NCBI RefSeq assembly: GCF_902774605.1
Contig: NZ_CACYJE010000013.1
Location: 1-33,992 of the forward strand
DNA length: 33,992 nt
Reading direction: 5' to 3'
Origin: an uncultured Methanobrevibacter sp.
GTDB lineage: Archaea > Methanobacteriota > Methanobacteria > Methanobacteriales > Methanobacteriaceae
The translations under genes were made by a program, and so were the position numbers. Position 1 is the stretch's first letter. Each line of letters starts with the position of its first letter. Shown here piece by piece: positions 1,884-33,028 of this stretch. The notes under the pieces were generated by a model, which did not search any database, was not told the origin of the DNA, and was given only the letters and a program-made list of their open reading frames with translations.

Positions 1884-3782
1884 TTAGTCAATTTTCAGAT
1901 ATAATAATGTCATATCATCAAATTGCTCTTCATCTCTTGTAAAGTTATGGATATCATTTAATAATGGTCTTATAGGGTCTTTTTCACTTCCATATTCATT
2001 AAAGAAGTTCAATAATTTGTCCTCGCCATACATTTCCTCGTTTGAATTATTTGCATCGGTAATTCCATCAGTATATAAAACAATTTCCTCTGATAGGATA
2101 ATTTCTTCTGTTTGGAACTTAAAGTCTTCCATGATTCCTAAAACGATTCCAGTGTCAATACTCTGATATTTGAACTTTTCATTTTCTTTAATTAATGGTG
2201 GATTATGACCTGCATTGGAGAAAATTAATTCATGAGTTGTTTTATTGTATATTCCAAGCCATAATGTGATAAACATTGATTCCTGATTATTTTCACATAA
2301 CTGATTATTTAAAATGTATAAAATCTCTGAAGGATCCTGATTTTGCTTTAGAAGTTGTTTTATCATTACTTGGGTAATCATTGCAAGAATAGCTGCTGGA
2401 ACGCCTTTTCCTGAAGCATCTCCGATCACAATGACTAAATGTTCATCATCTAATTCATAATAATCAAAAAAGTCCCCTCCAACTTCCTTGGCGGGTTTGG
2501 AATAACCATTGACTTTATAATATTCGCTGACAAGAGGTTCAGTAGGCAGGTTTGCCGCTTGGATTCTAGTTGCAATGTCAAGTTCAGCTTTAATGCGCTC
2601 TTTTTCCCCCTCAATTTCACGAATATTTTCAATGTATCTATTGTTAAAGTTAATCAGGTCAGTATATGAACGGGCAAGGGTTCCAATTTCGTTTTTTTCA
2701 TTAATATACCTTGAGTAAATGTCTACTAATCCCTCGGATTCGATTTTTTCATGTTCATGGATAAATTCCTCAATTTTTGAGAATGATATGATAGGTTCAA
2801 TCACTTTAATTTCCACGTGTCTTAAAACCGCCAGTGATGGGATTAAAAATATTATTAGCAACGCGTCCATTATTGCCATCATCGAAATCATGATTTCGGT
2901 TCTATTTATTGGAAGTAAAGAATCGATGGCAGTGATGAGGAGATGGTCATAAGATATTATTACTCCAAGAATCATGATGACTAATATTGTTAAATGGAAG
3001 ATGTTCATTATCTCTTCTGGAATGGACCGGGTATTGGAAGTGACTATATTTGAAGTGATAGGCTTTGTCAAATAAATGAATAAAAGCAAACCAATGATTA
3101 TTAACTCAATAATTATGATTGAATGATTCACATTAACGGCAAAATCAGTTATTAATATTAAGATTAATAATGTGATTAAAAGGATGCCTAAAGATTTGTA
3201 GAGTTTTTTATTGAATCCTTTTTTTGATGTTTTTGGAATGTGGGCGCAATCTAGCTTATTTGATAACCAAATTCCGATTATTCCAAAAATGAATGCGGAA
3301 TTAATAAAGTTCAGGAAGTATCTAGTCTCAATAAGGCTAGTAATAGGGGATGTTTCAGGATTGATTAAGCAAAATAGCTTCCCATGCATTGATGAGTATA
3401 GCAGGCCGCAGAGAATAATGATTCCTATGAATAAAATCACATTGAATGTATTGTTTAATTTTGGTCTTGTAACTGCTGGTCTGTATTTAAAATCTGTATA
3501 CCATAGTTTATATCCTAAATATGATATTCCAAGGCCAACTATTGCGGACAATGATGCTAAGGGCAGACCATATCCTCTAATAATGTCGCATAAGAGATTA
3601 CCGGCAACTGCTCCTATTGTGCCGTAAGGTCCAAAGATCAGTCCGGAAATTAATAATATTCCTACATGGGGGCTTAATCCTTCTCCATAATTATGTCCAT
3701 AAGTCAAATAGTATGTTCCTAGATTGAAAATTAGCATTAATGCAAATGGAATTACTATCTTTTTTATTTTATCATTCATCAT
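1884..3782 (-). CDS. Membrane-anchored SpoIIE/RsbU-type PP2C serine phosphatase
   Basis: The 632-residue protein has a membrane N-half and a cytosolic phosphatase. Residues about 10-175 hold hydrophobic helices with glycines and a charged pair (GPYGTIGAVAGNLLCDIIRG) that recall the substrate-binding subunits of ECF transporters. Further helices lie at about 197-240, 262-285 and 297-320. A HAMP-like and coiled-coil linker follows (about 325-402). The PP2C core is at about 403-632, with metal-binding acidic residues in GGDFFD (435-440), GDASGKG (454-460), YTDGITD (570-576) and DDMT (622-625), plus the NAGHNPPL turn (523-530). It should dephosphorylate the STAS protein of the same operon. Its ATG overlaps the upstream kinase's stop by four bases, so translation is probably coupled. 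The sensed signal is unknown. The phosphatase call is firm; the ECF resemblance is tentative. Confidence 0.9.
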   Translation of the reverse strand: MMNDKIKKIVIPFALMLIFNLGTYYLTYGHNYGEGLSPHVGILLISGLIFGPYGTIGAVAGNLLCDIIRGYGLPLASLSAIVGLGISYLGYKLWYTDFKYRPAVTRPKLNNTFNVILFIGIIILCGLLYSSMHGKLFCLINPETSPITSLIETRYFLNFINSAFIFGIIGIWLSNKLDCAHIPKTSKKGFNKKLYKSLGILLITLLILILITDFAVNVNHSIIIIELIIIGLLLFIYLTKPITSNIVTSNTRSIPEEIMNIFHLTILVIMILGVIISYDHLLITAIDSLLPINRTEIMISMMAIMDALLIIFLIPSLAVLRHVEIKVIEPIISFSKIEEFIHEHEKIESEGLVDIYSRYINEKNEIGTLARSYTDLINFNNRYIENIREIEGEKERIKAELDIATRIQAANLPTEPLVSEYYKVNGYSKPAKEVGGDFFDYYELDDEHLVIVIGDASGKGVPAAILAMITQVMIKQLLKQNQDPSEILYILNNQLCENNQESMFITLWLGIYNKTTHELIFSNAGHNPPLIKENEKFKYQSIDTGIVLGIMEDFKFQTEEIILSEEIVLYTDGITDANNSNEEMYGEDKLLNFFNEYGSEKDPIRPLLNDIHNFTRDEEQFDDMTLLYLKID

Positions 3783-4156
3783 TCCACATTTTTCATAATC
3801 TTTAAGTGATTTTCACCATTCACATGATTGTATGTTATTTCATCAGCAAATTCTTTTGTTAAAAAGATTCCAAGACCTCCGATTTGAGCATCCTCAATAT
3901 TTTCAGGAAGTTCTGGTTTTTCTTTTAAAAGCGGATTGAATTCAACTCCATTGTCAATAAATTCAATTGTTAATAGGGCATTATCAAATTCAATATTGAC
4001 TTTGATAAACTTGGTTTTAGAGTAATTAACAATATTGACAAATATTTCTTCAACAATAAAATTAACTTGAATGTTCTCTTCGCCAAGTTCACTTAAAACA
4101 AACTCGTTTAATGTATATAATTCATTTAATTCAGGTTCTAATGAAATAGATTTCAT
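3779..4156 (-). CDS. RsbW/SpoIIAB-like serine kinase (HATPase_c_2 domain)
   Basis: This is a 125-residue single-domain GHKL ATPase of the anti-sigma-factor kinase type. The N box is at 36-44 (E36, E37, N41, N44). The G1 box is D68-N69-G70 followed by FNPL, a hallmark of the RsbW group. The G2 box is G93-G94-L95-G96 followed by IFLTKEFADE. All ATP-binding elements are present, so it is probably active. In bacteria such kinases phosphorylate a STAS partner and sequester a sigma factor. Archaea have no sigma factors, so the second partner here is unknown. It overlaps the STAS gene upstream (ATGA) and the phosphatase downstream by four bases each, giving a compact operon. The same FNP-containing G1 signature recurs in the C-terminus of the MATE protein at 15161-16888. 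Confidence 0.9.
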   Translation of the reverse strand: MKSISLEPELNELYTLNEFVLSELGEENIQVNFIVEEIFVNIVNYSKTKFIKVNIEFDNALLTIEFIDNGVEFNPLLKEKPELPENIEDAQIGGLGIFLTKEFADEITYNHVNGENHLKIMKNVE

Positions 4157-4452
4157 TCTATCTTTAATATTTTGTCAAAACCTGACATTCTGAATATTTC
4201 GCCAATGGTATCATTAACGTTTTTGATAGTCATTGGAATGTCTTCAGGTTTTAATTTCTTTTGGGTTGCAATTAAAACACGTAAACCTGCACTGGAAATG
4301 TATTCTAAATCTGAGAAATCTATGATTAATGAATCAAACTTGCCTATCTCGTCATTTATCTCATTTTCAAAATCCGGTGCGGTAACTGTGTCAATACGGT
4401 TTCCAACTTTAACAGTCAATTCTTTTTCATTATAATTTTTCACAATATCCAT
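4153..4452 (-). CDS. STAS domain protein, anti-sigma factor antagonist-like (RsbV/SpoIIAA)
   Basis: The 99-residue protein is a lone STAS domain. The segment YISSAGLR (51-58) aligns with the FMDSSGLG segment of Bacillus SpoIIAA; by that alignment Ser54 is the phosphorylation site, and the usual preceding Asp is replaced by Ser53. It should switch between phosphorylated and free forms under the kinase and phosphatase encoded downstream. It is the first gene of the operon. Its ATG at 4452 follows a GTGAT ribosome site, and its stop overlaps the kinase start. The operon is read away from the second DUF4013 gene, with a 346-base divergent region between them. What the free form binds is not shown here; the exporter-linked ATPase domain at about 16530-16888 is one candidate. 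Confidence 0.88.
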   Translation of the reverse strand: MDIVKNYNEKELTVKVGNRIDTVTAPDFENEINDEIGKFDSLIIDFSDLEYISSAGLRVLIATQKKLKPEDIPMTIKNVNDTIGEIFRMSGFDKILKIE

Positions 4453-4798: not shown

Positions 4799-5509
4799 AT
4801 GGAATTAGGCGAAATCATAACTGATGCTTTAACTTATCCACTTCAAAATATTAAAGCATTAGTGATATATATTATTTTAGGTATTATTTTAGGACTTGCA
4901 GTCGGAGGAACTGTAGCAGGTGTTGTTGTAGGTTCTCAAGCTAACAACGCATTGGCAGTTATTGGATCAGGAATCCTCGGAATAATCGTTGCTCTTGTAC
5001 TGGGATTTTTCATTTCTGGTTATCAATTAGACATTACTAAATATGGTATTGAAAGAAGCAGTGCCGGTCCTGAAATCGATTTTGTAAGGCAATTCATCAA
5101 TGGGATTAAACTTTTTGTTGTAACCATTGTTTATATGATTGTACCAATCATTATTAGTGCAATATTGGCAGTTATCTTCCAGCACTGGTTATCTACTGTA
5201 ATCACAGCAATCTTAACTATTATATTTGGTTTAGCATTAATAATGGGTCAATGCAGATTGGCTAAAACCGAAGATTTAGGATTTGCATTAGCTATTGGCG
5301 ATGCTATTGGAGATATTTCAAGAATAGGAATTGTAAAACTCCTTGTTTTCATTATTCTCATATTCATAGTATACTTCATAATATTCTTTATTTTAGGTGC
5401 AATTTCCCAATGGAACGCTACTGTCGGCGGAATATTGATGGGTATCTTAGGAGTTTACCTTACATTCTTCACTGGTAGAGCAACTGGTTTATTATACTCT
5501 GATGTATAA
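4799..5509 (+). CDS. DUF4013 family membrane protein
   Basis: This 236-residue protein begins with ELGEIITDALTYPLQN, the usual entry of DUF4013 proteins. About six membrane helices follow (around 21-45, 55-75, 103-128, 132-152, 176-203 and 207-225), with a charged loop ITKYGIERSSAGPEIDF between helices two and three. The start is fixed by an AAAGGTGA ribosome site eight bases upstream. The family is widespread in methanogens and has no established function. The gene stands alone, with divergent regulators upstream and a T-rich terminator downstream. It is a distant relative of the protein at 1081-1860. Confidence in family membership is good; a role cannot be given. Confidence 0.8.
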   Translation: MELGEIITDALTYPLQNIKALVIYIILGIILGLAVGGTVAGVVVGSQANNALAVIGSGILGIIVALVLGFFISGYQLDITKYGIERSSAGPEIDFVRQFINGIKLFVVTIVYMIVPIIISAILAVIFQHWLSTVITAILTIIFGLALIMGQCRLAKTEDLGFALAIGDAIGDISRIGIVKLLVFIILIFIVYFIIFFILGAISQWNATVGGILMGILGVYLTFFTGRATGLLYSDV

Positions 5510-5517
5510 ATAAACCT

Positions 5518-5547
5518 TTATTTTTTTTCTTTTTTTTCTTTTTTTCT
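5518..5547 (+). terminator. T-rich archaeal-type terminator
   Basis: Three runs of 7-8 T separated by single C residues begin about nine bases after the DUF4013 stop codon. Oligo-T tracts without a strong hairpin are the usual archaeal transcription stop. There is no competing structure here. Confidence 0.6.
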
Positions 5548-5673
5548 AGCAAGTGAATAATATTGCTTGCATTATATCAAAAATAAAATTAAATGTTTTT
5601 TACAGTAATTTAGTGAAATCGAAATAATTTCATTTTAAACATAAAATTAAAATACTTGTTTGGGAGAGATAAT

Positions 5674-7077
5674 GTGAAGAAGACAAAAATTATCTGCAGC
5701 GTAGGTCCGGCATCCGATTCTGCTGAAGTCATGAGTGAAATGGTCAACAATGGAATGGATTGTGCCCGCATCAACCTCAGCCATGCTACATATGATGGAA
5801 TATTGGAAACGATTGAGGTGGTCAGGCAGGTTCGAGAAGAATGCAATGCTCATATAGCAATCATGTATGACACTAAAGGGCCTGAATTCAGAACATTGGA
5901 ATTCTCTGATGGAGGCGTAAGCCTTCAAAAGGGAGATACAATTAAAATGAGCAAAACATGCATACATGGCAATGAAAAGGAATTCGGAGTCAATCATAGC
6001 GAAGCAATAGACCTTATTCAAGTTGGAGACAAGGTGCTAGTGGATAATGCATTGCTTGAATTGGAAGTCATAGACAAGAATGACAATCATGTTGTCCTTA
6101 AAGCATTGGGCAATGGTGAAATCCAAAATCACAAAACAATCAATGTTCCAGGAGTGGACTTGAAGTTGGATTTCATGAGTGAAGTTGACAAAAAGGACAT
6201 CACATTTGCGGCCAAGCATTCCTGCGATTATTTGGCGTTATCATTCGTAAACAGAAAGGAAGATGTGATCAGCGCCCGTGAAATAATAGATGAGGCTGGA
6301 GGCGACGCTTTAATCATTTCCAAAATAGAAAGTCGCATGGGCATTGAAAATATAGATGAAATCATCGATGAATCCGACGGCATCATGGTGGCTAGAGGGG
6401 ACCTGGGAGTGGAGGTTCCTATGGAGAAGCTGCCAATGCTTCAAAAGGACATCATTAAAAAATGCCGTGAAAAGGGAAAGTTCGCAATTGTCGCTACAGA
6501 AATGCTTGCCTCAATGTATGAGAATCCTCGCCCTTCAAGAGCGGAAGTTTCAGATGTGGCCAATGCAGTATTGGACGGAACCGATTGCGTGATGCTTTCA
6601 GGTGAAACCACAGTTGGAAAGTATCCGATAGAATCAGTTGAGATAATGAGCAAAATATGCAAATATGTTGAATCAACCATTGATTATACAAAACACCCAG
6701 TTTACAAGGGGTCAATCGGAATCAGCGACACTATTGCAAAACTTGTTGTTGAAGCAGTTGAACATTCAGACATTAAGCTAATAGTCGCCCCTACCATGAC
6801 TGGGTTCACCGCCCGTAAAATCAGTAATTTAAGGCCGAACTCCATAATTTTGGCTTGTTGTCCATCAAATCATCTTGCTCAGAAGGTTGCATTGAACTTT
6901 GGGGTCAAACCGGTCCGCACTGACATATATGAAAGCACTGACAATGTAATTGAAAATGCCAGAAAAATGGCTCAAAATGAATTCAATCTTAATGAAGGAG
7001 AATTAATAGTTATCACTGGAGGATTCCCGTTGGGTGAAGCGAAAAAAACAAACTATTTAAGAATATTAGCGATTTAA
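5674..7077 (+). CDS. pyk: Pyruvate kinase
   Basis: The 467-residue protein converts phosphoenolpyruvate and ADP to pyruvate and ATP in the cytosol. It opens with KKTKIICSVGPAS, the standard pyruvate kinase N-terminus. It carries the MYDTKGPEFRT loop, the active-site block ISKIESRMGIENIDEI followed by DGIMVARGDLGVEVP, and the MLSGETTVGKYP motif. The C-terminal domain (about 350-467) is complete and ends in the usual ITGGFPLG-type segment. I place the start at GTG 5674, behind GGGAGAGAT; an in-frame TTG at 5656 would add six residues but lacks a ribosome site and would put the ribosome site inside the gene. The gene stands alone between a T-rich terminator and the NRPS leader. The operon relation to the NRPS is probably nil, given the 266-base gap. 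Confidence 0.95.
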   Translation: MKKTKIICSVGPASDSAEVMSEMVNNGMDCARINLSHATYDGILETIEVVRQVREECNAHIAIMYDTKGPEFRTLEFSDGGVSLQKGDTIKMSKTCIHGNEKEFGVNHSEAIDLIQVGDKVLVDNALLELEVIDKNDNHVVLKALGNGEIQNHKTINVPGVDLKLDFMSEVDKKDITFAAKHSCDYLALSFVNRKEDVISAREIIDEAGGDALIISKIESRMGIENIDEIIDESDGIMVARGDLGVEVPMEKLPMLQKDIIKKCREKGKFAIVATEMLASMYENPRPSRAEVSDVANAVLDGTDCVMLSGETTVGKYPIESVEIMSKICKYVESTIDYTKHPVYKGSIGISDTIAKLVVEAVEHSDIKLIVAPTMTGFTARKISNLRPNSIILACCPSNHLAQKVALNFGVKPVRTDIYESTDNVIENARKMAQNEFNLNEGELIVITGGFPLGEAKKTNYLRILAI

Positions 7078-7343: not shown

Positions 7344-10300
7344 ATGCACAAGTTTAATCTATCATCATCTCAGAAGATGCTGTTGTTCTCTGAGGTAAAC
7401 AATCCTAACAACGACTCGTTTTATCTCAAATTCAGAAAGGATTATGATTTGAAGAATTTTGATGACGTAAAACAAGCTATTGAATGTATTTCTAGAAATA
7501 ATTTAAACTTAAAAATTAAATATGATGAAAATGGTGATTTCAAGCAATATTACGATGATTTTGATGTAAATGTAGAATCATTTGAAGTTGCTGATGAAAA
7601 TTTGAATAAATTCATTGCAGATTACTTGGATGAACCTTTTGATGATGTTTTCGATTCTCCCTTGTATAAATGGGCAGTATTAAAAACAGAATCATCAGCT
7701 ATCCTTATCGGGGTTGTACAGCATATCCTATTGGATGGAACTTCCTTATTTTCATTAATTCCTCAGGAAATTGAAAAGTATATCGGTGATGAGGAATATG
7801 TTCCAGAGGATTATTCTTACGAAACTTATGTTAATGATGAAATGGATTATTTGGAGTCACCTGAATCCAGTGAAGATAAAAAATATTGGTTAAACACTTT
7901 AAAGGATTATTCGCAGGATTGGTATTCATTCGTCAAGTCCGAACTTGGTTATTATGAAGTGCTTTTGGATCAAATCCCCAACTTTGAGTATTCTCCCTTT
8001 GTCACTGCACTTGCACTTGAGTTTTTATACTTTGCAAAATCCAAAATGAACAACAAATTGTTTAGGGACATTGTGATGAACACTTCCGTCCATGGAAGAT
8101 ACTTCGGGCAAGGTGATGCTCTTGGAATGTTTGTAAATACAATTCCATTAAGGCTTGCCTATAATGAGGATTTAACCTTTGATGAGTTGCTGGCGTATTC
8201 AAAATCAGTTCTAAAAGAGGGATTGGCACATGCCAAATTGCAGTTCAGTGAATACACAACTGATTTGAGAAATGTAGGCATTGACCCTGACTGCATTTCA
8301 ATGTTTTCCATCGTGTCCAATTCCACAGACTATGATTCAAAATTCCTGACTTTGCAAAAGGATATCAAGTTCCCATTGCACTTCAGGATAAATAAGAACT
8401 ATTCAGATAAAAATGGTCTGCAATCCATATTTGTGGAATATGACAAATCCTGCTTCAGCCATTATGAAATTGAATCAATTGCAAATGGTTTAAGGGATTT
8501 GCTAAGGCAGATAATAGATGATTCATCCAAAAAATGCAGGGATTATTCTGTTGAAGTGGTTGATTTCTTCAAGGCTGAAAACTACTACAATAACATGATA
8601 AATTCATTTGACAATCCGACAGCAATCTCTCCAGATATGAGTGGAGACAATGTAAAATTCTGCGAAATTTCCAAACCAATAGATGATGATAAATTAAAGA
8701 ACTTGTCAAAACAATATAATCTGTCTAAGGAAAGAATTCTGTTGTCCGTGTTCATGTTTAACTTGACAAAATTCTCATTTTCAAAAGATATTCTTGTTGC
8801 CTACAATAAACAGGCTTGCGGATATCATTTCAACACAGATTTATCTGTTATGGAATACTTAGATGACTTTAAAAAGTATTTCAAGCATTACTCAAATTAT
8901 CCTTTGTTAAACAATAAAAAACTCAATTTTAAAAGTGAAATATTGTTTTTCACTAATGAATACGATGCCCAGGACTATAAATTCGTATTAAATTATGAAA
9001 GTGGTAAAATCAACATCAGCTATGACGAGTCATTCTACTCAAAAGCACTAATTGAAACATTTCTGGAATCAATTGAAGTTTTATTGGATAGATTTGAATC
9101 AAGCGACAGTTTATTGAAAGACATTTCCATAAGAAGAGAACTTGAATATGATGAGGACTTTAAGATTGAACTTGCAAATGAAGGAGTTGTCAACAAGGTC
9201 TTTGACAGGGCTGTAGCTCAAAACCCTCAAAAAACAATACTCATTGCAGAAGACGGGGAATTAACATATGATGAGTTGAACAAAAAATCCAATAGGATAG
9301 CTAATGCATTAATCAAAAGAGGAGTGAACATTGAAGACAGAGTAATGTTCATGATGAGAAGAAACAGTGACTTGATAGCTGCAGTTTTAGGTATTGTCAA
9401 GGCGGGAGCCGCTTTCATACCAATTGATCCGAAGTATCCTATAAACAGAATCAATCAAATCCTGGAGGACAGTGATTCCAAATTCGTCATAACAAGTTCG
9501 GAAATAGGTTATGATGGAGAAAACAGAATAGATGTTGATGATTTGCTCGATGAAAGTGATGATTCCAATCCAGAAATTGAGTTAATTCCTGATAACTTGT
9601 GTTTCATGATTTATACCTCAGGTTCAACCGGAAAGCCTAAGGGTGTAATGATTACCCATAGGGGAATCACAAACTATGTTGCAAATGTTGAGGAGAATGT
9701 CCCGATTTATGAGTTGAATCACAAGTGTAACAAGTTCATTTCAATTTCAACAGTTTCCTTCATTGTATTTCTGAGAGAGGTGTTTGGTACAATACTCAAT
9801 GGATTGCCGGTGGTGTTTGCAAACGATGAGGAATCAATAGATCCATTGAAATTGGTTGAATTGTTCAAAAAAACAGAAGCTCAAGGATTTGGTTCCACTC
9901 CGACAAGACTGCTTGAATACCTGCAGCTTGAAGAGATTCAGGATGTTGTTAAGGATTGTAATGTGATAATTGTGGGCGGGGAAGGATTCCCTCCTATATT
10001 ATATGACAGACTGTCAAAATACACTGATGCAGACATCTACAATTCTTACGGTCCGACAGAGGTCACCATTGCATCACACTACAAGTTGATTGACTCACCT
10101 CAAGTCTCCGCAGGATGGAAAATGCTCAATGTGGTTGATAAGATAATGGATATCGATGGAAATCAACTGCCTCCATATGTTGCGGGTGAAATCTATGTTG
10201 GGGGTGCAGGAATTGCAAGAGGATATCTGAATAATAATGAGCAAACCCAAAAGGTCTTTTTAACAGTTAATGACATTCCATATTACAATACTGGAGATTT

Positions 10301-13300
10301 GGGTAAAAAAGATGCTAACGGCGAGCTATATGTTCATGGAAGAAATGATACTCAAATCAAACTTAGGGGCTTAAGAATAGAATTGTCTGAAATTGAAGGG
10401 GCAATTGCCAATTATGAAAATATTTCCCTTTCAAAGGTTGTTGTTAAAAAAATCAATTCAGTTGAGCATTTATGCGCTTACTTTACAGCAATAGCTGATA
10501 TAGATATTGATGATTTAAGGCAACATTTAATAGATTCAATTCCTGAGTATATGGTTCCATCTTATTTCACACAACTTGACGAGTTTCCTAAAACTCCAAA
10601 TGGAAAGACAGACTTCAAAAACTTGCCTGACCCGGAAATTGACGTTGATGATTTTATAAAACCAAGAACTGAAATCGAACAGGAGTTATTCAATATTGTA
10701 TCTGAACTCCTGAACATTGAGGAATTTGGTGTGAACACTGATTTATTCAGCATAGGATTGACTTCATTGTCTGTAATCAAATTAACGTCTGCAATTTACA
10801 ATAACTTGAATGCACAGTTAAACGTTACTGAAATACTTAATTATAAGACAATTGAAAGAATCGCTTCAGAAATTAAGATTGAAGACGCATCATCAAGTGA
10901 TGTGCAGGAATTATATCCTTTAACCTCAAATCAACTTGGAGTTTACTTTGACTGCATTAAAGACCCTGAAAACACTGCATATAATCTTCCAAAGAAAATA
11001 GAATTTGATGAAGGCATTGATGCAGATAAACTCAAGTTATCAATTGTTAAAGCCATTGAAAATCATCCATATCTAAAAACAAGAATTATAATGGAAAACG
11101 GTGAGGTTTACCAAGAAAGAAGGGATGACCTTAAAGTTGAGGATTTAATAGAAATGGTTGATGATGCTAATGTGGACGAGTTTGTAAAGCCGTTCAAGCT
11201 TGATGAGGGGCCATTGTTCCGCTTCAAGATAGTTGGAAATTCAATGCTGCTTGCTGATTTCCACCATATCATCGTTGATGGAACTTCATTAAACATTCTA
11301 TTTGATGAAATAGCTAAAATCTATGATGGGAAAGATTATGATCTTGAAGAGCTTGATGGATTCGAATACTCCTTGAATGAAAAGAAAACAGAGCAATCCC
11401 GCTTATATGAAGAGGCTAAACTATTTTTCTCCAATAAGATTAAGGAATTTGATGATGCCACATTGATTCCACAGGACATCAATGGTGATGAGTCACAAGG
11501 CAGTGCTGCAATGGATGATATCTTCTTGGATAAGGAATCCATTGATGGGTTCTGCGCCAAATCAGGCATATCTCAAAATAACTTATTCCTGGCTGCAACT
11601 TCATTTGTCATAAACAAGTTTGTTTACAATCGTGAAATATTGATTGCAACAATCACTAACGGCAGATTCAATCCAAACCAGCAAAAGACATTGGCAATGA
11701 TGGTTAAGACATTGCCTTTAGCATTGAAATTGAATTCAGATTCAAATATCAAGGAATACTTTGACTACATTAATGGTGAATGGTTAAGCGTATTGGGTTA
11801 CTCCTCATATCCTCTAACAGAAATTTCAAACGAGTTCGACATCACTCCTGAAATATTGTATGCATATCACGGAAAAATCATAGAGGACATTGAAATCGGG
11901 GGAATGAATGTCGAAAGGCAATCAATCGATTATGAAGGATTGAAATTCAAGATAAACATTAATGTTGTTGATATCGGAGACCAATACAGGATTTTCTGCG
12001 AATACAATGACCAATTATACTCTAAAACTTTAATTGATACATTCCTTAACTGTATTAGGGTTGTTCTGAATAAATTCCAAAAATTCGATGAAAAAACCTT
12101 GATGAAGGATATTTCAATAATCGAAAATGATGATTGGGGAGCTGACGATTTAGAATATGATGAAATTCCAGAGGAAAGATTAAACAAGATATTTGAAAAT
12201 CAGGTGGAAATGCATCCGGACAAGGTTGTTTTATATGCCACCGATGGGGAATTCACATATGGGCAATTAAATGAAAAGGCCAACCGGATTGCACATAGTC
12301 TTATCAAAAAGGGCGTAGGTCCTGAAGACAGGATAATGTTCATTCTCAACAGGGACAGTAACACAATCGCATCAATTTTCGGTATCTTGAAATCAGGCGC
12401 TGCATTTATTCCGGTGGACTCAGAATATCCTTCTGAAAGAATTGAGCACGTATTGACCGACAGCAAGTCAAAATACATAATTGTGGATGATGTGATTGAG
12501 AAAAAATCCATAGACCTGTCCCAATATGGGGACAATCTATTGGATGTCCATGAACTTCTAAAAGAGGAGGACACTTCAAACCCTGACCCTGACGTTCATG
12601 GAAATAACATGGCTTATCTCATCTACACTTCAGGTTCCACGGGACTTCCGAAAGGAGTAATTCTCGAACATGGAAACATTGCAAACTTCGTTTATCCTGA
12701 TCCTAGAAATGTCTGTACCTATGAACTGGTGCACAATCTTGAAAAAGAGGATTATAAGGTACTGTCCACCACAACAGTTGCTTTTGATGTATTCCAGCAA
12801 GAGATTATGGGATCCCTATTGAATGGGGTGCCGATGGTATTTGCTAATGACACCGAATACAAAGACCCAATCGAAATGATGAGCCTGATTCACAGGACAG
12901 GCGCCAATGTCTACATTGCAACTCCATCACGTTTGCTGCAATACCTGGAAATCGAAGCGATGCAGGAGACAATGTACGGATTCAAGGTATACATTCACGC
13001 TGGAGAACCATTCTCCGCCAGATTATATGAACTACTTTCACAAAACTCCAATGGAAAATTATTCAACATGTACGGACCAACCGAGACAACAGTCTACTGT
13101 AACGGTCAATTGCTTGAAAGTTCAGACATTCACATTGGAAAAGAGCTTTTCAACGTACATGAAATGGTTATGGATTTCGATTCAAACCCATTGCCTCCAA
13201 ATGTCATTGGGGAATTGTACATTGCAGGGAAAGGTGTTTCAAGAGAATACCTGAACCGTCCTGAGAAAAATGAAGAGGCATATGAAACAATTAACGGAAT

Positions 13301-15149
13301 CCGGTTCTACCGCTCAGGGGACTTTGTCAAAGTCACTGAAGATGGGGACTATTATGTGTTCGGAAGAATGGATAACCAAATCAAGCTCAGAGGATTAAGG
13401 ATTGAAATAGGTGAGATTGAAGTTGGTCTTTCAAAATTCCCTGGAATCAAATCCGTTGCCGTTGTAGTTAAAAAGATTAAGGGCAATGATCACTTATGTG
13501 CATATTTCACTGTTCATGATGATTACAAGGATGAAAACCGTGAGGAGAACGGATATTCAATTGATATTGATGAGTTAAAGGCTTCACTTGCTGAAAAATT
13601 GGTATATTACATGGTTCCAACAGTCTACATGGAACTTGATGAAATGCCTCAAACTGCAAACGGTAAAACCGATTTGAGGAATTTGCCTGAACCAGTTCTA
13701 ATCACTGAATATGTTGCTCCTGAAAATGACATTGAAGCATTCTTTGCAAGCCTGTTTGCAGAAATTTTAGGACTTGATGAAGTAAGCGCTACGGACAACT
13801 TCTTTGAAATCGGTGGAACTTCACTTCTAGTTACTAAAATTACCATGGAGGCTATTAACAGAAATTATAACCTTAATTACGGGGATGTATTCTCAAATCC
13901 GACTCCAAGGGCATTGTCAGACTTTATATTATCTGATGAGTCATTAGAGAAGAAATCAGAATTGGCTTATGACTATTCTGAAATCAACAGGCTGCTTGAG
14001 AAAAACAATATTGAAACAATCATTAATGGTGAAATCCAAGACAGCTTAGGTAATGTGCTATTGACCGGAGCCACAGGATTTTTAGGAATACATGTATTGC
14101 GAGAATTACTTGAAAATGAAGATGGTGAAATTTACTGTTTCATAAGATCCAATAAGGTTCTAAGCGGCGCTGAAAGATTGAAATCACTTCTATTCTATTA
14201 TTTCTCAGATGAGTACAATGAGGCATTTGATGAAAGGCTGCACATTATCGAAGGGGACATCACAAACTTTGAGGACTTTGAAAAGCTTGTGCATGAGAAA
14301 ATAGATACGGTATTCAACTGTGCTGCTAACGTAAAACACTTCTCTTCAGGAACAGACATTGAAGATATCAACCTTGGCGGTGTAGTCAATGGACTCAAGT
14401 TTGCTAAAATGAAGAATGCGAAATATGTTCAGATTTCAACTTACAGTATTGCGGGCGAAAGTATTGACAACTATCCTCCAGTTGACGTTAAATTCACAGA
14501 AAATGATCTTTTCATCGGTCAAGCAGTGGATAACCAATATTTAAACAGTAAATTCCTTGCGGAACGTGCTGTATTGGAAGCTGCCGTTAATGATGATTTG
14601 GATGTCAAGATTATGCGTGTAGGTAACCTGATGGCCAGAAGTTCGGACAGTGAATTCCAAATCAACTTCGTATCAAACGGTTTCATCAACCGTCTTAAGG
14701 CGTTCGTGACAATAGGTAAAATGCCATATTCCATGCTTATGAACCCTGTTGAATTTTCACCGATTGACATTACCGCCAAAGCTATTGTGGGGTTGTCTAA
14801 AACTCCTAAGGAATGTACTGTTTTCCATCCATATGATTATCACAATATCTATTTTGGAGATATAATTAATATAATTAGACCGTTAGGATTGACAATTGAT
14901 CCTGCTGAAGAGGATGATTATCAAAAAGCATTGGATGAAGCTCTTGCAGACAAAACAAAACAAGAGGGAGTTTCCGGCTTAATCACATCTATTGGTTCAG
15001 GTAAGGTTAAAAAGATATGGCTTCCTGTAGACAATTCCTATACAATTCAGGCATTATATCGTTTAGGAATTACATGGCCATTCCTTTCAGAGGAATATGT
15101 TTATAATTTTGTAAAATACTTGGATGAACTTGATTTCTTTAGTGTTTAA
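7344..15149 (+). CDS. Two-module NRPS with terminal thioester reductase
   Basis: The 2601-residue enzyme assembles a dipeptide-like product on carrier domains. By eye the order is: C1 (1-430; H127, D131, G132 in QHILLDG); an extra C-terminal half of a C domain (about 430-605); A1 (about 605-1110; YTSGSTGKPKG from 757, SYGPTE near 901); PCP1 (Ser1141 in GLTSL); C2 (about 1190-1630; HHIIVDG, H1308); A2 (about 1640-2120; YTSGSTGLPKG from 1761); PCP2 (Ser2160 in IGGTSL); reductase (about 2225-2601; TGATGFLG, Y2399, K2403). No thioesterase is present, so release should be NAD(P)H-dependent as aldehyde or alcohol. The start is ATG 7344 behind GGTGGGA; GTG 7335 is part of the ribosome site. A MATE exporter follows by 11 bases. 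Archaeal NRPSs are rare and this one probably came from bacteria, although its AT-rich codon use now matches the neighbours. The product is not predictable from this alone. Confidence 0.95.
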   Translation: MHKFNLSSSQKMLLFSEVNNPNNDSFYLKFRKDYDLKNFDDVKQAIECISRNNLNLKIKYDENGDFKQYYDDFDVNVESFEVADENLNKFIADYLDEPFDDVFDSPLYKWAVLKTESSAILIGVVQHILLDGTSLFSLIPQEIEKYIGDEEYVPEDYSYETYVNDEMDYLESPESSEDKKYWLNTLKDYSQDWYSFVKSELGYYEVLLDQIPNFEYSPFVTALALEFLYFAKSKMNNKLFRDIVMNTSVHGRYFGQGDALGMFVNTIPLRLAYNEDLTFDELLAYSKSVLKEGLAHAKLQFSEYTTDLRNVGIDPDCISMFSIVSNSTDYDSKFLTLQKDIKFPLHFRINKNYSDKNGLQSIFVEYDKSCFSHYEIESIANGLRDLLRQIIDDSSKKCRDYSVEVVDFFKAENYYNNMINSFDNPTAISPDMSGDNVKFCEISKPIDDDKLKNLSKQYNLSKERILLSVFMFNLTKFSFSKDILVAYNKQACGYHFNTDLSVMEYLDDFKKYFKHYSNYPLLNNKKLNFKSEILFFTNEYDAQDYKFVLNYESGKINISYDESFYSKALIETFLESIEVLLDRFESSDSLLKDISIRRELEYDEDFKIELANEGVVNKVFDRAVAQNPQKTILIAEDGELTYDELNKKSNRIANALIKRGVNIEDRVMFMMRRNSDLIAAVLGIVKAGAAFIPIDPKYPINRINQILEDSDSKFVITSSEIGYDGENRIDVDDLLDESDDSNPEIELIPDNLCFMIYTSGSTGKPKGVMITHRGITNYVANVEENVPIYELNHKCNKFISISTVSFIVFLREVFGTILNGLPVVFANDEESIDPLKLVELFKKTEAQGFGSTPTRLLEYLQLEEIQDVVKDCNVIIVGGEGFPPILYDRLSKYTDADIYNSYGPTEVTIASHYKLIDSPQVSAGWKMLNVVDKIMDIDGNQLPPYVAGEIYVGGAGIARGYLNNNEQTQKVFLTVNDIPYYNTGDLGKKDANGELYVHGRNDTQIKLRGLRIELSEIEGAIANYENISLSKVVVKKINSVEHLCAYFTAIADIDIDDLRQHLIDSIPEYMVPSYFTQLDEFPKTPNGKTDFKNLPDPEIDVDDFIKPRTEIEQELFNIVSELLNIEEFGVNTDLFSIGLTSLSVIKLTSAIYNNLNAQLNVTEILNYKTIERIASEIKIEDASSSDVQELYPLTSNQLGVYFDCIKDPENTAYNLPKKIEFDEGIDADKLKLSIVKAIENHPYLKTRIIMENGEVYQERRDDLKVEDLIEMVDDANVDEFVKPFKLDEGPLFRFKIVGNSMLLADFHHIIVDGTSLNILFDEIAKIYDGKDYDLEELDGFEYSLNEKKTEQSRLYEEAKLFFSNKIKEFDDATLIPQDINGDESQGSAAMDDIFLDKESIDGFCAKSGISQNNLFLAATSFVINKFVYNREILIATITNGRFNPNQQKTLAMMVKTLPLALKLNSDSNIKEYFDYINGEWLSVLGYSSYPLTEISNEFDITPEILYAYHGKIIEDIEIGGMNVERQSIDYEGLKFKININVVDIGDQYRIFCEYNDQLYSKTLIDTFLNCIRVVLNKFQKFDEKTLMKDISIIENDDWGADDLEYDEIPEERLNKIFENQVEMHPDKVVLYATDGEFTYGQLNEKANRIAHSLIKKGVGPEDRIMFILNRDSNTIASIFGILKSGAAFIPVDSEYPSERIEHVLTDSKSKYIIVDDVIEKKSIDLSQYGDNLLDVHELLKEEDTSNPDPDVHGNNMAYLIYTSGSTGLPKGVILEHGNIANFVYPDPRNVCTYELVHNLEKEDYKVLSTTTVAFDVFQQEIMGSLLNGVPMVFANDTEYKDPIEMMSLIHRTGANVYIATPSRLLQYLEIEAMQETMYGFKVYIHAGEPFSARLYELLSQNSNGKLFNMYGPTETTVYCNGQLLESSDIHIGKELFNVHEMVMDFDSNPLPPNVIGELYIAGKGVSREYLNRPEKNEEAYETINGIRFYRSGDFVKVTEDGDYYVFGRMDNQIKLRGLRIEIGEIEVGLSKFPGIKSVAVVVKKIKGNDHLCAYFTVHDDYKDENREENGYSIDIDELKASLAEKLVYYMVPTVYMELDEMPQTANGKTDLRNLPEPVLITEYVAPENDIEAFFASLFAEILGLDEVSATDNFFEIGGTSLLVTKITMEAINRNYNLNYGDVFSNPTPRALSDFILSDESLEKKSELAYDYSEINRLLEKNNIETIINGEIQDSLGNVLLTGATGFLGIHVLRELLENEDGEIYCFIRSNKVLSGAERLKSLLFYYFSDEYNEAFDERLHIIEGDITNFEDFEKLVHEKIDTVFNCAANVKHFSSGTDIEDINLGGVVNGLKFAKMKNAKYVQISTYSIAGESIDNYPPVDVKFTENDLFIGQAVDNQYLNSKFLAERAVLEAAVNDDLDVKIMRVGNLMARSSDSEFQINFVSNGFINRLKAFVTIGKMPYSMLMNPVEFSPIDITAKAIVGLSKTPKECTVFHPYDYHNIYFGDIINIIRPLGLTIDPAEEDDYQKALDEALADKTKQEGVSGLITSIGSGKVKKIWLPVDNSYTIQALYRLGITWPFLSEEYVYNFVKYLDELDFFSV

Positions 15150-15160
15150 GGGGTAAAACA

Positions 15161-16888
15161 ATGTATGAACGTAATTATGAGTTATTAAGAAGTAAGTTTG
15201 CAGAGTTTTTTCTGCCTACATTATTCACTTCCATGGCAGGAAATATTTGTCTTTTTGTAGATGGTTTGATTGTGAGTTTTTTGCTCGGTGCAGCCAACCT
15301 GTCAGCAATTCAGATTGTTGCTCCCATAATCACTTTTGTAAATCTCATTTACTGGATGATTGGATTGGGAGGCAGTGTTCTCTGCTCTGTTGCAAAGGCG
15401 GAATTCGATGATGAAAAGAGCAATAGCTACTTTTCGGTGGCAATAATATCTCTTTTAACAATAGGGATAGTGATAGCAATTGTAGGTCTTATATTTTCAG
15501 GCTCAATTGCCCAGTTTTTATGTGCTTCACAGCCCGAATTGATTCCGGATGTCACTAGCTATTTCCGTTCATTGGTTATTGGAATGCCGTTTTTATGTTA
15601 TATGATGAGTTTATCATACTTTATAAGGGCAGATGGAATTCCTACCTTGCCTTTCAGAGCAATATTGTTGGCTAACATTATCAACATCTGCTTTGATTTC
15701 ATATATATTCAATTCTTTAATTTGGGAATAGGGGGTGCCGCATTGGCTACCTCAACAGGGTATTTGACAGGTTCAATATTCATTTCATATTATTTCTTCA
15801 AGTCAGAGCGTACATTACAATTCATAAAATTGAAATTAAGTTCGTTTTTATCTTTCCTTAAGGGGATTGTCACTTCAGGATTTTCATCTGCATCGACCCA
15901 ATTGTACTTGACATTAAAGCTATTGATTATAAACTCCTTGATTGGAATATATGTTGGAAACGCAGGTCTTGTAGCATTTGGTATTTGTTATAACAGTTTG
16001 TTCATATTGTACATATTTTTAATTGGGACATCTCAGACAATGTCTCCAATTGTGTCAGTTTACTATAAGGAAGAGGATTATTCCGGTGTGAATTACATTA
16101 TTCGCAGATCATTGAAAATAGTGTTTGTTTCAAGTCTTGCATTGGCGGTTTTATTCATCATTTGTCCTCAATCCTTGTTGATGTTGTACAGCGTTAAGGA
16201 CCCGGCTTATGTTCCTGTTGTCTTAAATGCTGTAAGGATATTTGCAATAAGCTATGTGGGAACTGCAATAACATTCTTATATACGTTCTATTCTCAGGCA
16301 ATACAGAAAAATCAATTGTCTACAATCATTTCATTGCTTGAAGGATTGATATTTCCGATTGGATTTGCAACAGTATTGTCCTTTGTGTTTGGAGGAAATG
16401 GAATCTGGATTTCATTTGCATTGGCAGAACTCTTTACAATACTGTTCATATTTGCATATTCAAGATACCTCAACAGGAAAACCAATGGGGAGTTCTCAGG
16501 ATTTTTTATCAACAAGCATAATGACGATACAAAAGTATGCGAGTATACCATACATGGCAATATTGAAGAGGCTGTTGAATTGTCACAAGAGGTTCAAAAT
16601 TATTTAGAAGGCAACAAATCCGCAATGGTGGTAAGTATGGCCATTGAGGAAATGATTGTGAATATTATCAACATTAATGATGAGGTCGACACAATTGATG
16701 TGATTGTCAGAAATAATGATGACAATATCACGATTTCAATCAAGGATACAGGAATCGATTTCAATCCTATGACTGAAAATGATAATTTGGAATTTGACAA
16801 CATTAGTGTCCTAAACAGAATAGCCGATAAAATCGATTATTCCAGGGTTTTGGGATTGAACAGTACAGTTATCACAATCAAAAATTAA
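15161..16888 (+). CDS. MATE-family exporter fused to an RsbW-like HATPase domain
   Basis: Residues 1-440 form a MATE transporter with about 12 helices, with MATE-like features such as LPTLFTSMAGNICLFVDGLIV near the start and a second half beginning near 225. A charged linker (about 440-457) leads to a cytosolic domain (458-575) that resembles anti-sigma kinases. It has an N box, E496-E497-x3-N501, and a G1 box, D529-T530-G531 followed by FNPM, as in the kinase at 3779-4156. The G2 glycine box is not recognisable: the equivalent stretch reads NISVLNRIADKIDYSRVLG, so ATP hydrolysis or kinase activity may be lost. The ATG follows TAAGGGGTAAAACA, 11 bases after the NRPS stop, so the two genes are almost certainly one operon. 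Likely role: export of the NRPS product, gated or localised by the ATPase domain (inference). A general drug-efflux role is the alternative. Confidence 0.9.
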   Translation: MYERNYELLRSKFAEFFLPTLFTSMAGNICLFVDGLIVSFLLGAANLSAIQIVAPIITFVNLIYWMIGLGGSVLCSVAKAEFDDEKSNSYFSVAIISLLTIGIVIAIVGLIFSGSIAQFLCASQPELIPDVTSYFRSLVIGMPFLCYMMSLSYFIRADGIPTLPFRAILLANIINICFDFIYIQFFNLGIGGAALATSTGYLTGSIFISYYFFKSERTLQFIKLKLSSFLSFLKGIVTSGFSSASTQLYLTLKLLIINSLIGIYVGNAGLVAFGICYNSLFILYIFLIGTSQTMSPIVSVYYKEEDYSGVNYIIRRSLKIVFVSSLALAVLFIICPQSLLMLYSVKDPAYVPVVLNAVRIFAISYVGTAITFLYTFYSQAIQKNQLSTIISLLEGLIFPIGFATVLSFVFGGNGIWISFALAELFTILFIFAYSRYLNRKTNGEFSGFFINKHNDDTKVCEYTIHGNIEEAVELSQEVQNYLEGNKSAMVVSMAIEEMIVNIININDEVDTIDVIVRNNDDNITISIKDTGIDFNPMTENDNLEFDNISVLNRIADKIDYSRVLGLNSTVITIKN

Positions 16889-19496: not shown

Positions 19497-19526
19497 TTTA
19501 GATTTTCTCACATGAGAAAATCTAAA
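19497..19526. terminator. Bidirectional hairpin terminator, 14-bp perfect stem
   Basis: TTTAGATTTTCTCA (19497-19510) and its exact complement (19513-19526) flank a two-base loop between convergent genes. The hairpin overlaps the stop codon of the minus-strand channel gene. It should stop transcription from both sides. Confidence 0.7.
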
Positions 19527-20091
19527 TGTGTCCTTTAAGCTTAGGAATAATCCACATTGTCACTATTGAAAGCAGGCAGCAAATGATGACTGCCGGAGGA
19601 TATGCGAAATACCCGATAACCATCCCGATGATGACCAGAACAATGGTCATTAAGTAAATATAATCTTTTTGTAAAACCAGCTGCAATGCAATATTTGCCG
19701 GATCGGAATCCTTCAGGAACTTGGAAATCAGCTTTGAAAGCAATGCGGTTACAATGAAACTCAAACCATAGAGGAATTGCGGGAAGAACACATAGAAATT
19801 CTCCGCAACAAAAGTTGTAAGGTATGGCAGGAGTGAGAACACGAACAATGTGATTCCCATTGTCCAGATGACCTTTGAGTCAACCTTGTTCACGATGCTG
19901 AACAGGTTATTGTTGAAATTCCAGAAGTTGAAGCATACAATGAAACTGATTGCATAAATGATGAATTCATATTTCAATGCAAACAATGCTTCCCAGGAGC
20001 CGGATGATGCAAGAGGTATCTCCAGAACAATGATTGTTATGATGATCGCTAAAATGGCATCAATCAAGGCTTCAAATCTTTCAGTTTCCAT
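19522..20091 (-). CDS. TMEM175/DUF1211-like potassium channel subunit (second of a tandem pair)
   Basis: The 189-residue protein has six hydrophobic helices and opens with ETERFEALIDAILAIIITIIVLEIP, the first-helix pattern of prokaryotic TMEM175 (Arg followed by a Phe-Ser-Asp motif). Here the Ser is changed: the motif reads L-I-D. Prokaryotic TMEM175 proteins form tetrameric potassium-permeable channels in the cell membrane. I start at ATG 20091 behind a GGGAGGGTGA ribosome site; an in-frame start at 20118 would add nine residues and lie inside the neighbour. The upstream paralogue overlaps this gene by 11 bases, so the two are translated together and may form a mixed channel. The family call is good; ion selectivity is not readable given the altered motif. 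Confidence 0.8.
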   Translation of the reverse strand: METERFEALIDAILAIIITIIVLEIPLASSGSWEALFALKYEFIIYAISFIVCFNFWNFNNNLFSIVNKVDSKVIWTMGITLFVFSLLPYLTTFVAENFYVFFPQFLYGLSFIVTALLSKLISKFLKDSDPANIALQLVLQKDYIYLMTIVLVIIGMVIGYFAYPPAVIICCLLSIVTMWIIPKLKGHI

Positions 20092-20659
20092 TTTCACCCT
20101 CCCTTGTAAATCTGGCAATCAAAATCCATAAGACAATTGACAACAGGCAGGTAATGTAGATTCCCGGTATATAAACGGTATAGGTCAGGATAAAACCAAT
20201 CGCCATCACTATTAACGGGATGTTATGCATTGGGTTTGTGATTTGAAGATCATGGATGTTGCTGTAGGGATTGCTCTTGACAATGGTCCAATTCGCAGCA
20301 GTGTTCAGGATATGTGTTGCAATGAATATCACTCCAAACATTGTCTCGGCAGGAATTGAATAAACATTATTCGCAATCCAAATGGTGAAATAAGGAAGCA
20401 AAGAAATGACAAATGTCATGACTCCATAAATCCACAATGTGATATTGTCGATATTGTCCACAGCCCGGAACAGGTTATGGTTGGCATACCAGATATTATA
20501 CAATATCAAAAAGCTAATCAAATAGGCAATATAAATGTTCTGCAGCTCCAAAATTCCAGCCAAGGTAGGAGTTGTCGGCTGGGGGATTTTCAAAACCAGA
20601 ACCGTTATTATGATTGCAATGATTGCATCAAAAAATGTTTCAAATCTATCGGTTTCCAT
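20081..20659 (-). CDS. TMEM175/DUF1211-like potassium channel subunit (first of a tandem pair)
   Basis: The 192-residue, six-helix protein begins ETDRFETFFDAIIAIIITVLVLKIP and is a clear paralogue of the next gene. The canonical FSD motif of the first helix reads F-F-D. The start is ATG 20659. A longer reading to 20899 exists, but the added 80 residues lie antisense to the dehydrogenase gene and do not look like protein from this family. A TATA-like element at 20681-20689 (minus strand) is centred 26 bases upstream and there is no ribosome site, so the transcript is probably leaderless. The 3' end overlaps its partner by 11 bases. It shares a 52-base divergent region with the dehydrogenase gene. 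Confidence 0.8.
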   Translation of the reverse strand: METDRFETFFDAIIAIIITVLVLKIPQPTTPTLAGILELQNIYIAYLISFLILYNIWYANHNLFRAVDNIDNITLWIYGVMTFVISLLPYFTIWIANNVYSIPAETMFGVIFIATHILNTAANWTIVKSNPYSNIHDLQITNPMHNIPLIVMAIGFILTYTVYIPGIYITCLLSIVLWILIARFTREGENGN

Positions 20660-20680
20660 AAGATAATATTTATAATTTTT

Positions 20681-20689
20681 TAATATAAA
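20681..20689 (-). promoter_or_regulatory. TATA box of the channel pair (minus strand, leaderless)
   Basis: The minus strand reads TTTATATTA, centred 26 bases ahead of the ATG at 20659. The 52-base gap must also hold the promoter for the rightward dehydrogenase gene, so the two promoters probably overlap. Confidence 0.5.
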
Positions 20690-20711
20690 AATATTAATAA
20701 CAGGTGATAAG

Positions 20712-22124
20712 ATGGACATGCTAATAGGCGGAAAATATGTTACAAGCGAAGACAGGCAGGATGTGAAAAATCCTTTCAATGGTGAAGTAATCGACACAGT
20801 GCCGATAGCACACTTGCAAACAGCACAATTGGCAATTGATGCGGCTAATGATGCAAAGGAATCATTGACTGAAATGTCAGCATTCAAAGTATCAAACAAA
20901 CTCTATAATGTTGTTGAAAAGCTAAAGGAACATAAGGAGGAATTTGCCGAACTGTTGACAAGGGAGGTTGGAAAACCAATAAATGAATCCCTGGTGGAAT
21001 TGGACAGGTCAATAGAAACACTTAAACTGGCCGCTGAAGAGGCAAAAAGAATCTATGGTGAAAGCGTACCATTGGATGCAGGATTGAACGGAAAGGGATT
21101 TTTTGCATTCACACAACGCCTCCCATTAGGGGTGGTGGCTGCAATAACTCCATTCAACTATCCCCTAAACCTGACAATCCATAAAATAGCACCTGCAATA
21201 TCATGCAAAAACACAGTGATAGTCAAACCACCAACAGAAGCGCCCCTGACAGTGATGATGTTCTGCGAACTGCTTAACGAGGAATTCCCCGACGGGGTGG
21301 TGAATACTGTGACAGGCTACGGTTCGGAAGTTGGAGACTACCTTGTAACCTCGCCGGAAGTTAATAAAATATCATTCACAGGAAGCGTAACAACCGGATT
21401 GATGATATCCCAAAAGGCAGGGATGAAAAAGGTGACACTTGAGCTTGGCGGAAACGACCCGATGATTGTTCTGAAGGATGCAGATATTGACAAGGCAGTC
21501 AAAGGAGTGATCAACGGAGCATTCCTAAATGCCGGCCAGGTCTGCATGGGCGTTAAGAGAATAATCATTGAAGAGGAAATCGCTGATGAATTTGCACAGA
21601 AGCTTGTTGGGGAAACCGAAAAGCTGGTGATGGGAAATCCTCTGGACTCAAAAACAACTCTTGGAACATTAATCTCTGAAAATGCCGCCAGACAAGTTGA
21701 GGAGACAGTTAACAATGCAGTTGAAGATGGTGCAGAAATATTGATTGGCGGAGCGCGTGAAGGAGCATTCTATCAGGCAACAGTAATTGATAAGGTAACT
21801 CCATGCATGGATCTTGTGGTCAATGAAACATTCGGTCCGGTGGCACCAATAATCCGCATAGATTCAGTGGAGGAAGCCATTGAAGTGGCAAACGATACTG
21901 AATATGGTCTTCAGGCAGGAGTATTCACTGAAAGCTATTCGAATGCAATGAAATGTGCACGGGAAGTCGAGGCAGGAACAGTATTCATAAATAAGCAGTC
22001 AACATTCAGAACAGACAACATGCCTTTCGGAGGATTTAAAAACAGTGGCGTTGGAAAAGAAGGAATTAAATACGCCGTTGAAGAAATGACAAAAACAAAA
22101 TTAATAGGGTTAAATTTAAGATGA
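20712..22124 (+). CDS. cofA: Aldehyde dehydrogenase, CofA-like lactaldehyde dehydrogenase
   Basis: The 470-residue NAD(P)-dependent aldehyde dehydrogenase is complete. Glu244 (LELGG) and the catalytic Cys278 (GQVCMG) are in place, along with PFNYPLN, FTGSVTTG and the late FGPVAPI motif. Methanogens of this group usually carry one such enzyme, proposed to oxidise lactaldehyde to lactate for coenzyme F420 side-chain synthesis, as described for a Methanocaldococcus enzyme; length and start fit that subgroup. The gene symbol rests on that resemblance, and a different aldehyde is possible. A GGTGATAAG ribosome site precedes the ATG. The gene is divergent from the channel pair and ends at an 11-bp hairpin. 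It could in principle act on an aldehyde made by the NRPS reductase, but nothing in the layout demands it. Confidence 0.88.
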   Translation: MDMLIGGKYVTSEDRQDVKNPFNGEVIDTVPIAHLQTAQLAIDAANDAKESLTEMSAFKVSNKLYNVVEKLKEHKEEFAELLTREVGKPINESLVELDRSIETLKLAAEEAKRIYGESVPLDAGLNGKGFFAFTQRLPLGVVAAITPFNYPLNLTIHKIAPAISCKNTVIVKPPTEAPLTVMMFCELLNEEFPDGVVNTVTGYGSEVGDYLVTSPEVNKISFTGSVTTGLMISQKAGMKKVTLELGGNDPMIVLKDADIDKAVKGVINGAFLNAGQVCMGVKRIIIEEEIADEFAQKLVGETEKLVMGNPLDSKTTLGTLISENAARQVEETVNNAVEDGAEILIGGAREGAFYQATVIDKVTPCMDLVVNETFGPVAPIIRIDSVEEAIEVANDTEYGLQAGVFTESYSNAMKCAREVEAGTVFINKQSTFRTDNMPFGGFKNSGVGKEGIKYAVEEMTKTKLIGLNLR

Positions 22125-32377: not shown

Positions 32378-32379
32378 TT

Positions 32380-32868: not shown

Positions 32869-32988
32869 CTTTTTTTCTTATTTTGTGAAAATCAACACCA
32901 CTTTCTATTTCCTATTTAGTGAATTTCATCGTGCCAAATGTATATACTTTAAATAATCCATCATACGAAATATTAAATTGTATACTAA

Positions 32989-33022
32989 CTTTTGATATAT
33001 TAAATTTTAATATACATCAAAA
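32989..33022 (+). repeat. Imperfect palindrome in the leader of DUF3100 copy 2
   Basis: TTTTGATATATTAAA and TTTAATATACATCAAAA form a 33-base AT-rich imperfect palindrome that overlaps the likely TATA element. It lies about 10-40 bases upstream of the coding start. It could be an operator. Copy 1 instead has TATACT/AGTATA at 31420-31425 and 31437-31442. Confidence 0.45.
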
Positions 33023-33028
33023 TATTTC

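Follow-up and report, generated by a model that had tools for sequence, protein, structure and literature searches.

An archaeal synthetase encoded in the window, the 33,992-nt stretch of an uncultured Methanobrevibacter sp. genome analyzed here, is almost certainly a two-module nonribosomal peptide synthetase (NRPS) with reductive release, and its first adenylation domain (A1) very probably takes a substrate other than a standard α-amino acid. By sequence the gene is a known object, an ortholog of the mru_0068 type, which has been known from Methanobrevibacter since 2010. Three of its features, namely the missing Asp235 of A1, a half condensation domain and an exporter fused to an RsbW-like domain, are apparently unreported and change the product prediction: the product is probably not the dipeptide or pyrazinone guessed in the original prediction. 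For these three features, and for the product itself, no report on archaeal NRPSs was found in open-licence PMC papers.

Domain organization and integrity of the synthetase

The reading frame on the plus strand is open over 2604 codons from a GTG at 7335, or 2601 codons from an ATG at 7344, up to 15149. The ATG, which the earlier reader had chosen and which yields a 2601-aa protein, is the better start because a GGTGG ribosome-binding-like sequence lies about 8 nt upstream; residue numbers of the NRPS are nevertheless counted from the GTG at 7335. The Pfam profiles Condensation, AMP-binding (twice), PP-binding (twice) and NAD_binding_4 all score far over their cut-offs, and NCBIfam also recognizes NRPS domains. 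The full order reads C1-halfC-A1-T1-C2-A2-T2-R with intact catalytic motifs (Table 1), so that the simple predicted string C-A-PCP-C-A-PCP-R needs correction, as it lacks the half-C between C1 and A1. Motif inspection of 18 full-length sequences found QHILLDG of C1, HHIIVDG of C2, the carrier motifs GLTS and GGTS, the GATGFLG/ST/YxxxK signature of R and the A-domain cores with Lys517 to be nearly invariant; the active-site residues, whose absence on alignment would have told against the original prediction, are thus present.

Table 1. Features of the NRPS locus, in window coordinates
Feature	Position	Strand	Evidence
SpoIIE-type PP2C phosphatase	1884..3782	-	Pfam
RsbW-like HATPase; N-box, G1, G2 intact	3779..4156	-	Pfam; motif inspection
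STAS (anti-sigma-factor-antagonist-like) protein	4153..4452	-	Pfam, NCBIfam
C1, complete condensation domain	7344..8519	+	Pfam Condensation; QHILLDG invariant in 18/18 sequences
Half-C, condensation-domain C-lobe without N-lobe or HHxxxDG (aa 396-612)	8520..9170	+	Match to C2; kept in orthologs
A1 adenylation domain, code IVRGIGSIAK with Arg239 and without Asp235	9171..10649	+	Pfam AMP-binding; code extraction
A1 core IVFLR, Ile810 (position 235) to Arg814 (position 239)	9762..9776	+	Alignment with A domains of LgrA; no variation among orthologs or between genera
T1 carrier domain, Ser1144, GLTS	10650..10880	+	Pfam PP-binding; motif
C2 condensation domain, HHIIVDG	10881..12170	+	Pfam; motif; PDB search
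A2 adenylation domain, code DVQIIAMVYK, Pro-like	12171..13694	+	Pfam; Val236/Gln239
T2 carrier domain, Ser2163, GGTS	13695..13943	+	Pfam PP-binding; motif
R, terminal thioester reductase (SDR), GATGFLG, Thr2369, Tyr2402, Lys2406	13944..15149	+	Pfam NAD_binding_4; PDB matches
MATE exporter fused at its C-terminus to a degenerate HATPase_c_2 (RsbW-like) domain, aa ~441-575	15161..16888	+	N-box and G1 retained, loss of the glycine-rich G2

Against the closest ortholog (L008), dN/dS is about 0.04-0.20 across the domains (0.04 for A2, 0.10 for A1, 0.15 for C1 and about 0.20 for the half-C), with T1 and T2 below that range. C1 and the half-C are the fastest-evolving parts, yet they too are under purifying selection, and since this holds for every domain a chance ORF is excluded. 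The orthologs, at 79-95% identity, comprise 19 named loci, two of them truncated fragments. No further condensation domain exists elsewhere in the source genome assembly (2.14 Mb in 108 contigs, 96% complete); the AMP-binding pieces on small contigs, considered as a second NRPS, were rejected because they resemble fragments of other AMP-forming ligases.

Leahy et al. reported this layout in 2010 for mru_0068 of M. ruminantium M1, to which they ascribed a bacterial origin, and listed a MATE protein, a phosphatase and an anti-sigma antagonist among its neighbours; they name the release domain a "thioesterase" in the text and a thioester reductase in the legend of Figure S8 (PMC2812497). M. millerae SM9 carries the ortholog sm9_0755 (PMC4987999), and a rumen survey counted 687 NRPS clusters in 125 archaeal genomes (PMC8241843); these papers confirm the earlier statement that NRPSs are reported in Methanobrevibacter with undefined products. 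Both named orthologs resemble the window enzyme in their two modules, leading C domain and terminal R domain, and the presumed M1 copy (L086) has A1 and A2 codes identical to those of the window.

C1 carries QH instead of HH in its motif and retains the second His. In phmmer searches of the PDB, all with low scores, 8f7h and 7c1k were matched by C1 only and CDA by both C1 and C2, and starter-type C structures were either missing from the C2 search or weaker there than for C1. We take 8f7h (surfactin synthetase) and 7c1k to be starter C domains, and C1 is thus a possible starter-type, N-acylating domain. As C1 is intact, N-acylation of the first unit, which had been predicted as an option, is plausible, and we rate its chances as even. 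Three relatives (L038-L040) lack C1, probably through loss, and begin with the half-C, so acylation would not be essential to the family.

The half-C fills the gap of about 217 residues between C1 and A1; it matches C2 by BLASTP (E 1e-14) and the C2 profile by hhalign (99.7%, E 9.7e-26, C2 columns 185-425). It is present in the full-length orthologs, and a match of C-lobe length occupies the same place in distant genera (L088-L091). That it is an overlooked full C domain was rejected, the N-lobe being absent; it has probably been kept as a structural support on which A1 rests. The structure model of C1-halfC is of low confidence (pLDDT 53). In another relative (L042), C1 and most of the half-C form an ORF of their own (14822-16588) that overlaps the remaining synthetase (8518-14880), either a natural split or a frameshift.

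Substrate prediction and reductive release

Asp235 is the residue of an A domain that binds the α-amine of the substrate. Together with Lys517 it is conserved in A domains that activate α-amino acids (PMC11355689, PMC12283262). Alignment with LgrA places Ile at this position of A1, and the pair Ile235/Arg239 recurs in every ortholog checked as well as in several further genera of Methanobacteriaceae (L088-L091, L095-L098). The same extraction returned the canonical Val code DAFWLGGTFK from a Staphylococcus epidermidis NRPS with an adjacent phosphopantetheinyl transferase (PPTase), taken as AusA. From plasmid NRPSs it returned DFWNIGMVHK, DILQLGLIWK, DVWHVSLIDK and DGEDHGTVTK, a set that comprises canonical codes for Gly, Ser, Thr and the Lys/Orn type. 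A related clade with the code IARSxGSIAK occupies internal positions of synthetases with three to four modules (L043-L045, L048, L049, L099-L101), and the Ile235/Arg239 domains cluster together in the tree (support values not read). Module 1 of a further synthetase (L047, 5304-12161) has an Ile235/Arg239 A domain with the code IMRTIGAVPK; it sits in a different clade, outside the main one, which suggests that the Ile/Arg pair arose twice. The relatives of A1 on plasmids are at most 37% identical, and all six highly ranked ones inspected carry Asp235; on viral contigs the A-domain relatives reach only 23-37%, besides one 24-residue stretch at 67%. In the three-module synthetases L043, L049, L099 and L100, the first A domain is highly divergent, with an A4 region (positions 235-239) that cannot be aligned.

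Because Asp235 is missing invariantly, including at the internal positions of longer synthetases, A1 most likely loads a non-standard building block. The unit can sit inside a chain, so it should carry a nucleophile besides the activated carboxyl, and Arg239 suggests a second carboxylate on the substrate. Arg occurs at position 239 in the domains for aminoadipate (ACV synthetase), D-Glu and MeAsp (microcystin), all of which activate a side-chain carboxyl. The connection between Arg239 and a distal carboxylate is a lead drawn from the codes of ACV synthetase and microcystin, and by this analogy activation of the A1 substrate through its side-chain carboxyl is possible rather than probable; a reference A domain of this kind (PvdL, microcystin, ACV synthetase) was obtained neither from open-licence papers nor from the PDB, which was searched with part of a Pseudomonas A domain.

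For A2, the code agrees at only seven of ten positions with DVQLIAHVVK, which we take to be the Pro code. In a survey covering 71 Pro domains (PMC12283262), Val236 with Gln239 is characteristic of the group that activates Pro. Activation of proline by A2 is accordingly a prediction to which we give an equal chance of being right or wrong. Codes at the A2 position drift among relatives (DMQ-, DVH-, DLH-, DAI- and DPQ-types), and in L036 and L046 the dN of A2 (about 0.26 and 0.46) stands against 0.10 and 0.15 for A1. Module 2, being far more diverged in these two, appears to have been exchanged among relatives while module 1 was kept. An M24 prolidase/Xaa-Pro peptidase-like gene lies near this synthetase with its Pro-like A2 (window 3-1040), probably by coincidence.

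The reductive release in the original prediction is borne out by the PDB matches of R, with the intact ORF and the Pfam domains: R matches the PCP-R didomain 6vtj (E 7e-104) and the R domain of AusA, 4f6l (E 4e-51). We assume 6vtj to be the archaeal structure of Deshpande et al. 2021. The crystal structure that these authors solved for a PCP-R didomain from an archaeon is cited in PMC12783407. 6vtj and 6vtz hold the same kind of didomain as T2-R of the window, at about 45% identity (estimated by eye from the alignment), and thus probably come from a different methanogen synthetase.

Exporter and partner-switch genes

Of the 48 related loci that have room downstream, many of which are orthologs and not independent, 46 have a MATE gene no more than 500 bp from the NRPS; in 43 of these 46 it has a recognizable C-terminal HATPase-like domain, and this fusion stands downstream of most of the Methanobacteriaceae NRPSs examined. 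The Pfam HATPase_c_2 profile matches the MATE protein weakly in 15 of 15 orthologs scanned (best E 2e-4; 5e-4 in the window, below the curated cut-off). The domain keeps an N-box (EEM..N) and a G1 box (KDTGIDFNP) and is missing the G2 box of the separate RsbW; the structure model of the fusion is of low confidence (pLDDT 50). We predict that the MATE protein is likely to be the exporter of the NRPS product.

The minus-strand genes upstream form an operon with a complete partner-switch set in one cluster: a phosphatase, a kinase with N, G1 and G2 boxes and a STAS antagonist. All three components of the bacterial SpoIIE/RsbW/STAS switch thus stand beside the NRPS with the RsbW motifs intact; unlike in the bacterial switch, a G2-less RsbW-like domain is fused to the exporter. 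To our knowledge, archaea lack bacterial sigma factors. That partner switching acts on the transporter is predicted from this arrangement, and we consider it doubtful. Among loci with more than 4 kb upstream (n=30), STAS is found in 22, RsbW in 18 and SpoIIE in 17, and where a STAS gene is close by, the distance from it to the NRPS start is about 10-150 bp in most relatives. In the window, the SpoIIE-RsbW-STAS genes lie about 2.9 kb further off, since STAS and the NRPS are separated by genes for pyruvate kinase and a DUF4013 protein (4799-7077), a difference from the mru_0068 type; in L008, RsbW and STAS are found downstream, at about 8 kb. The MATE, STAS and SpoIIE neighbours are shared with the mru_0068 type. 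In the presumed M. ruminantium M1 locus, however, the MATE-HATPase gene is split into ORFs of 486 and 92 aa (L086, 12818-14553), and the stretch between SpoIIE and STAS yielded no RsbW.

The only PPTase gene found in the genome encodes a 210-aa Sfp-like protein (PF01648 and AASDHPPT_N) on another contig (G000:C48:13079-13363) and adjoins another STAS gene, like the M. ruminantium cluster mru0513-0516; in the mru_0068 type, too, the PPTase is elsewhere, near partner-switch genes. Elsewhere in the window are two overlapping tandem ORFs for a TMEM175-type potassium channel (19522-20899, minus strand) and two DUF3100 genes close together (31472-33928, plus strand).

Proposed pathway and alternatives

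We propose that A1 loads an invariant building block that would differ from an ordinary α-amino acid held by its α-amine and would probably still bear a nucleophile: either an iso-linked acidic amino acid, whose side-chain carboxyl would be activated while Arg239 holds the other carboxylate, or a β- or aryl-amino acid. C1 would N-acylate this unit and C2 would couple it to the Pro-like residue that A2 supplies; R, with NAD(P)H, would then free the product as an aldehyde (or alcohol) unable to cyclise to a pyrazinone. The product would be an N-acyl-X-prolinal-type peptide aldehyde in which X is non-standard, exported by the adjacent MATE-HATPase protein, and the SpoIIE-RsbW-STAS partner switch may tune export or expression. 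For the proposal as a whole, from a functional mru_0068-type enzyme and its acylated A1 unit to aldehyde release and MATE export, we hold the chances to be slightly better than even. Protease inhibition by the putative product is plausible, as for any peptide aldehyde.

AusA and the gut dipeptide-aldehyde NRPSs share two modules, a terminal R domain and aldehyde release with the window enzyme, and an AusA-like route would join an α-amino acid to a second residue, release the product reductively and let it cyclise spontaneously to a dihydropyrazinone or pyrazinone. The resemblance of the R domains fits this route, as does the NCBIfam AusA model, which aligns to aa 539-1501 far under its cut-off. 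That chemistry needs an α-amino acid with a free amine at position 1, and the cyclised imine or pyrazinone of the original prediction is therefore disfavoured: every A1 ortholog checked lacks Asp235, whereas A1 of AusA is a canonical Val domain with Asp at 235. The N-terminus of AusA is a degenerate, motif-less C remnant that still includes the N-lobe, in contrast to the intact C1 and the C-lobe-only half-C of the window enzyme; the two proteins are only 27% identical, and the PPTase gene adjacent in AusA is on another contig here. We find this route highly improbable. Little more credit goes to the idea of a degenerate, relic enzyme whose A1 has no catalytic activity or loads in trans, although the unusual A1 code, the half-C remnant and the relatives that are split or without C1 could be so explained; A1 has 86% mean identity among orthologs, keeps Lys517 and all core motifs at a dN/dS of about 0.05-0.10, and its class persists at internal positions of other synthetases.

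Two readings accept a non-standard A1 substrate of another kind. Aryl-acid A domains also lack Asp235, and an aryl-amino acid joined to Pro and released reductively would give a pyrrolobenzodiazepine-like or benzodiazepine-like imine, in agreement with the Pro-like A2, the terminal R and the presence of the A domain of NpsA (tilimycin) as one of many PDB matches. The ring closure, however, needs a free aryl amine, yet an intact C1 precedes A1; moreover, the A1-type unit is chain-internal in four-module relatives, Arg239 has no obvious role for anthranilate and no anthranilate-tailoring genes were seen nearby, which leaves this imine unlikely. Domains for α-hydroxy or α-keto acids are likewise without Asp235, and such a substrate would lead to a depsipeptide aldehyde. 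Keto-acid A domains have been described (PMC11355689). Module 1 has no ketoreductase domain, however, and Arg239 would go unexplained, so to a depsipeptide aldehyde, too, we assign only a slim chance.

A wider and more speculative idea, which we think unlikely to hold in full, is that a Methanobacteriaceae A-domain class (Ile235/Arg239, I[VA]R[GS]xGSIAK), otherwise undescribed, installs a fixed non-α unit in exported peptide aldehydes, that module 2 is swapped to diversify them, and that export is gated by the RsbW-like domain on the MATE protein, with the transporter rather than a sigma factor as the target of partner switching.

Methanogen NRPSs are found widely among archaea of the rumen and gut, yet no product was found described in open-licence PMC papers. 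The A1 code narrows the product away from the pyrazinones suggested by analogy-based annotation, and because it is invariant and non-standard the chemistry is directly testable with one purified domain. The transporter-fused RsbW-like domain leads to a testable idea on what role partner switching may have in an organism without sigma factors.
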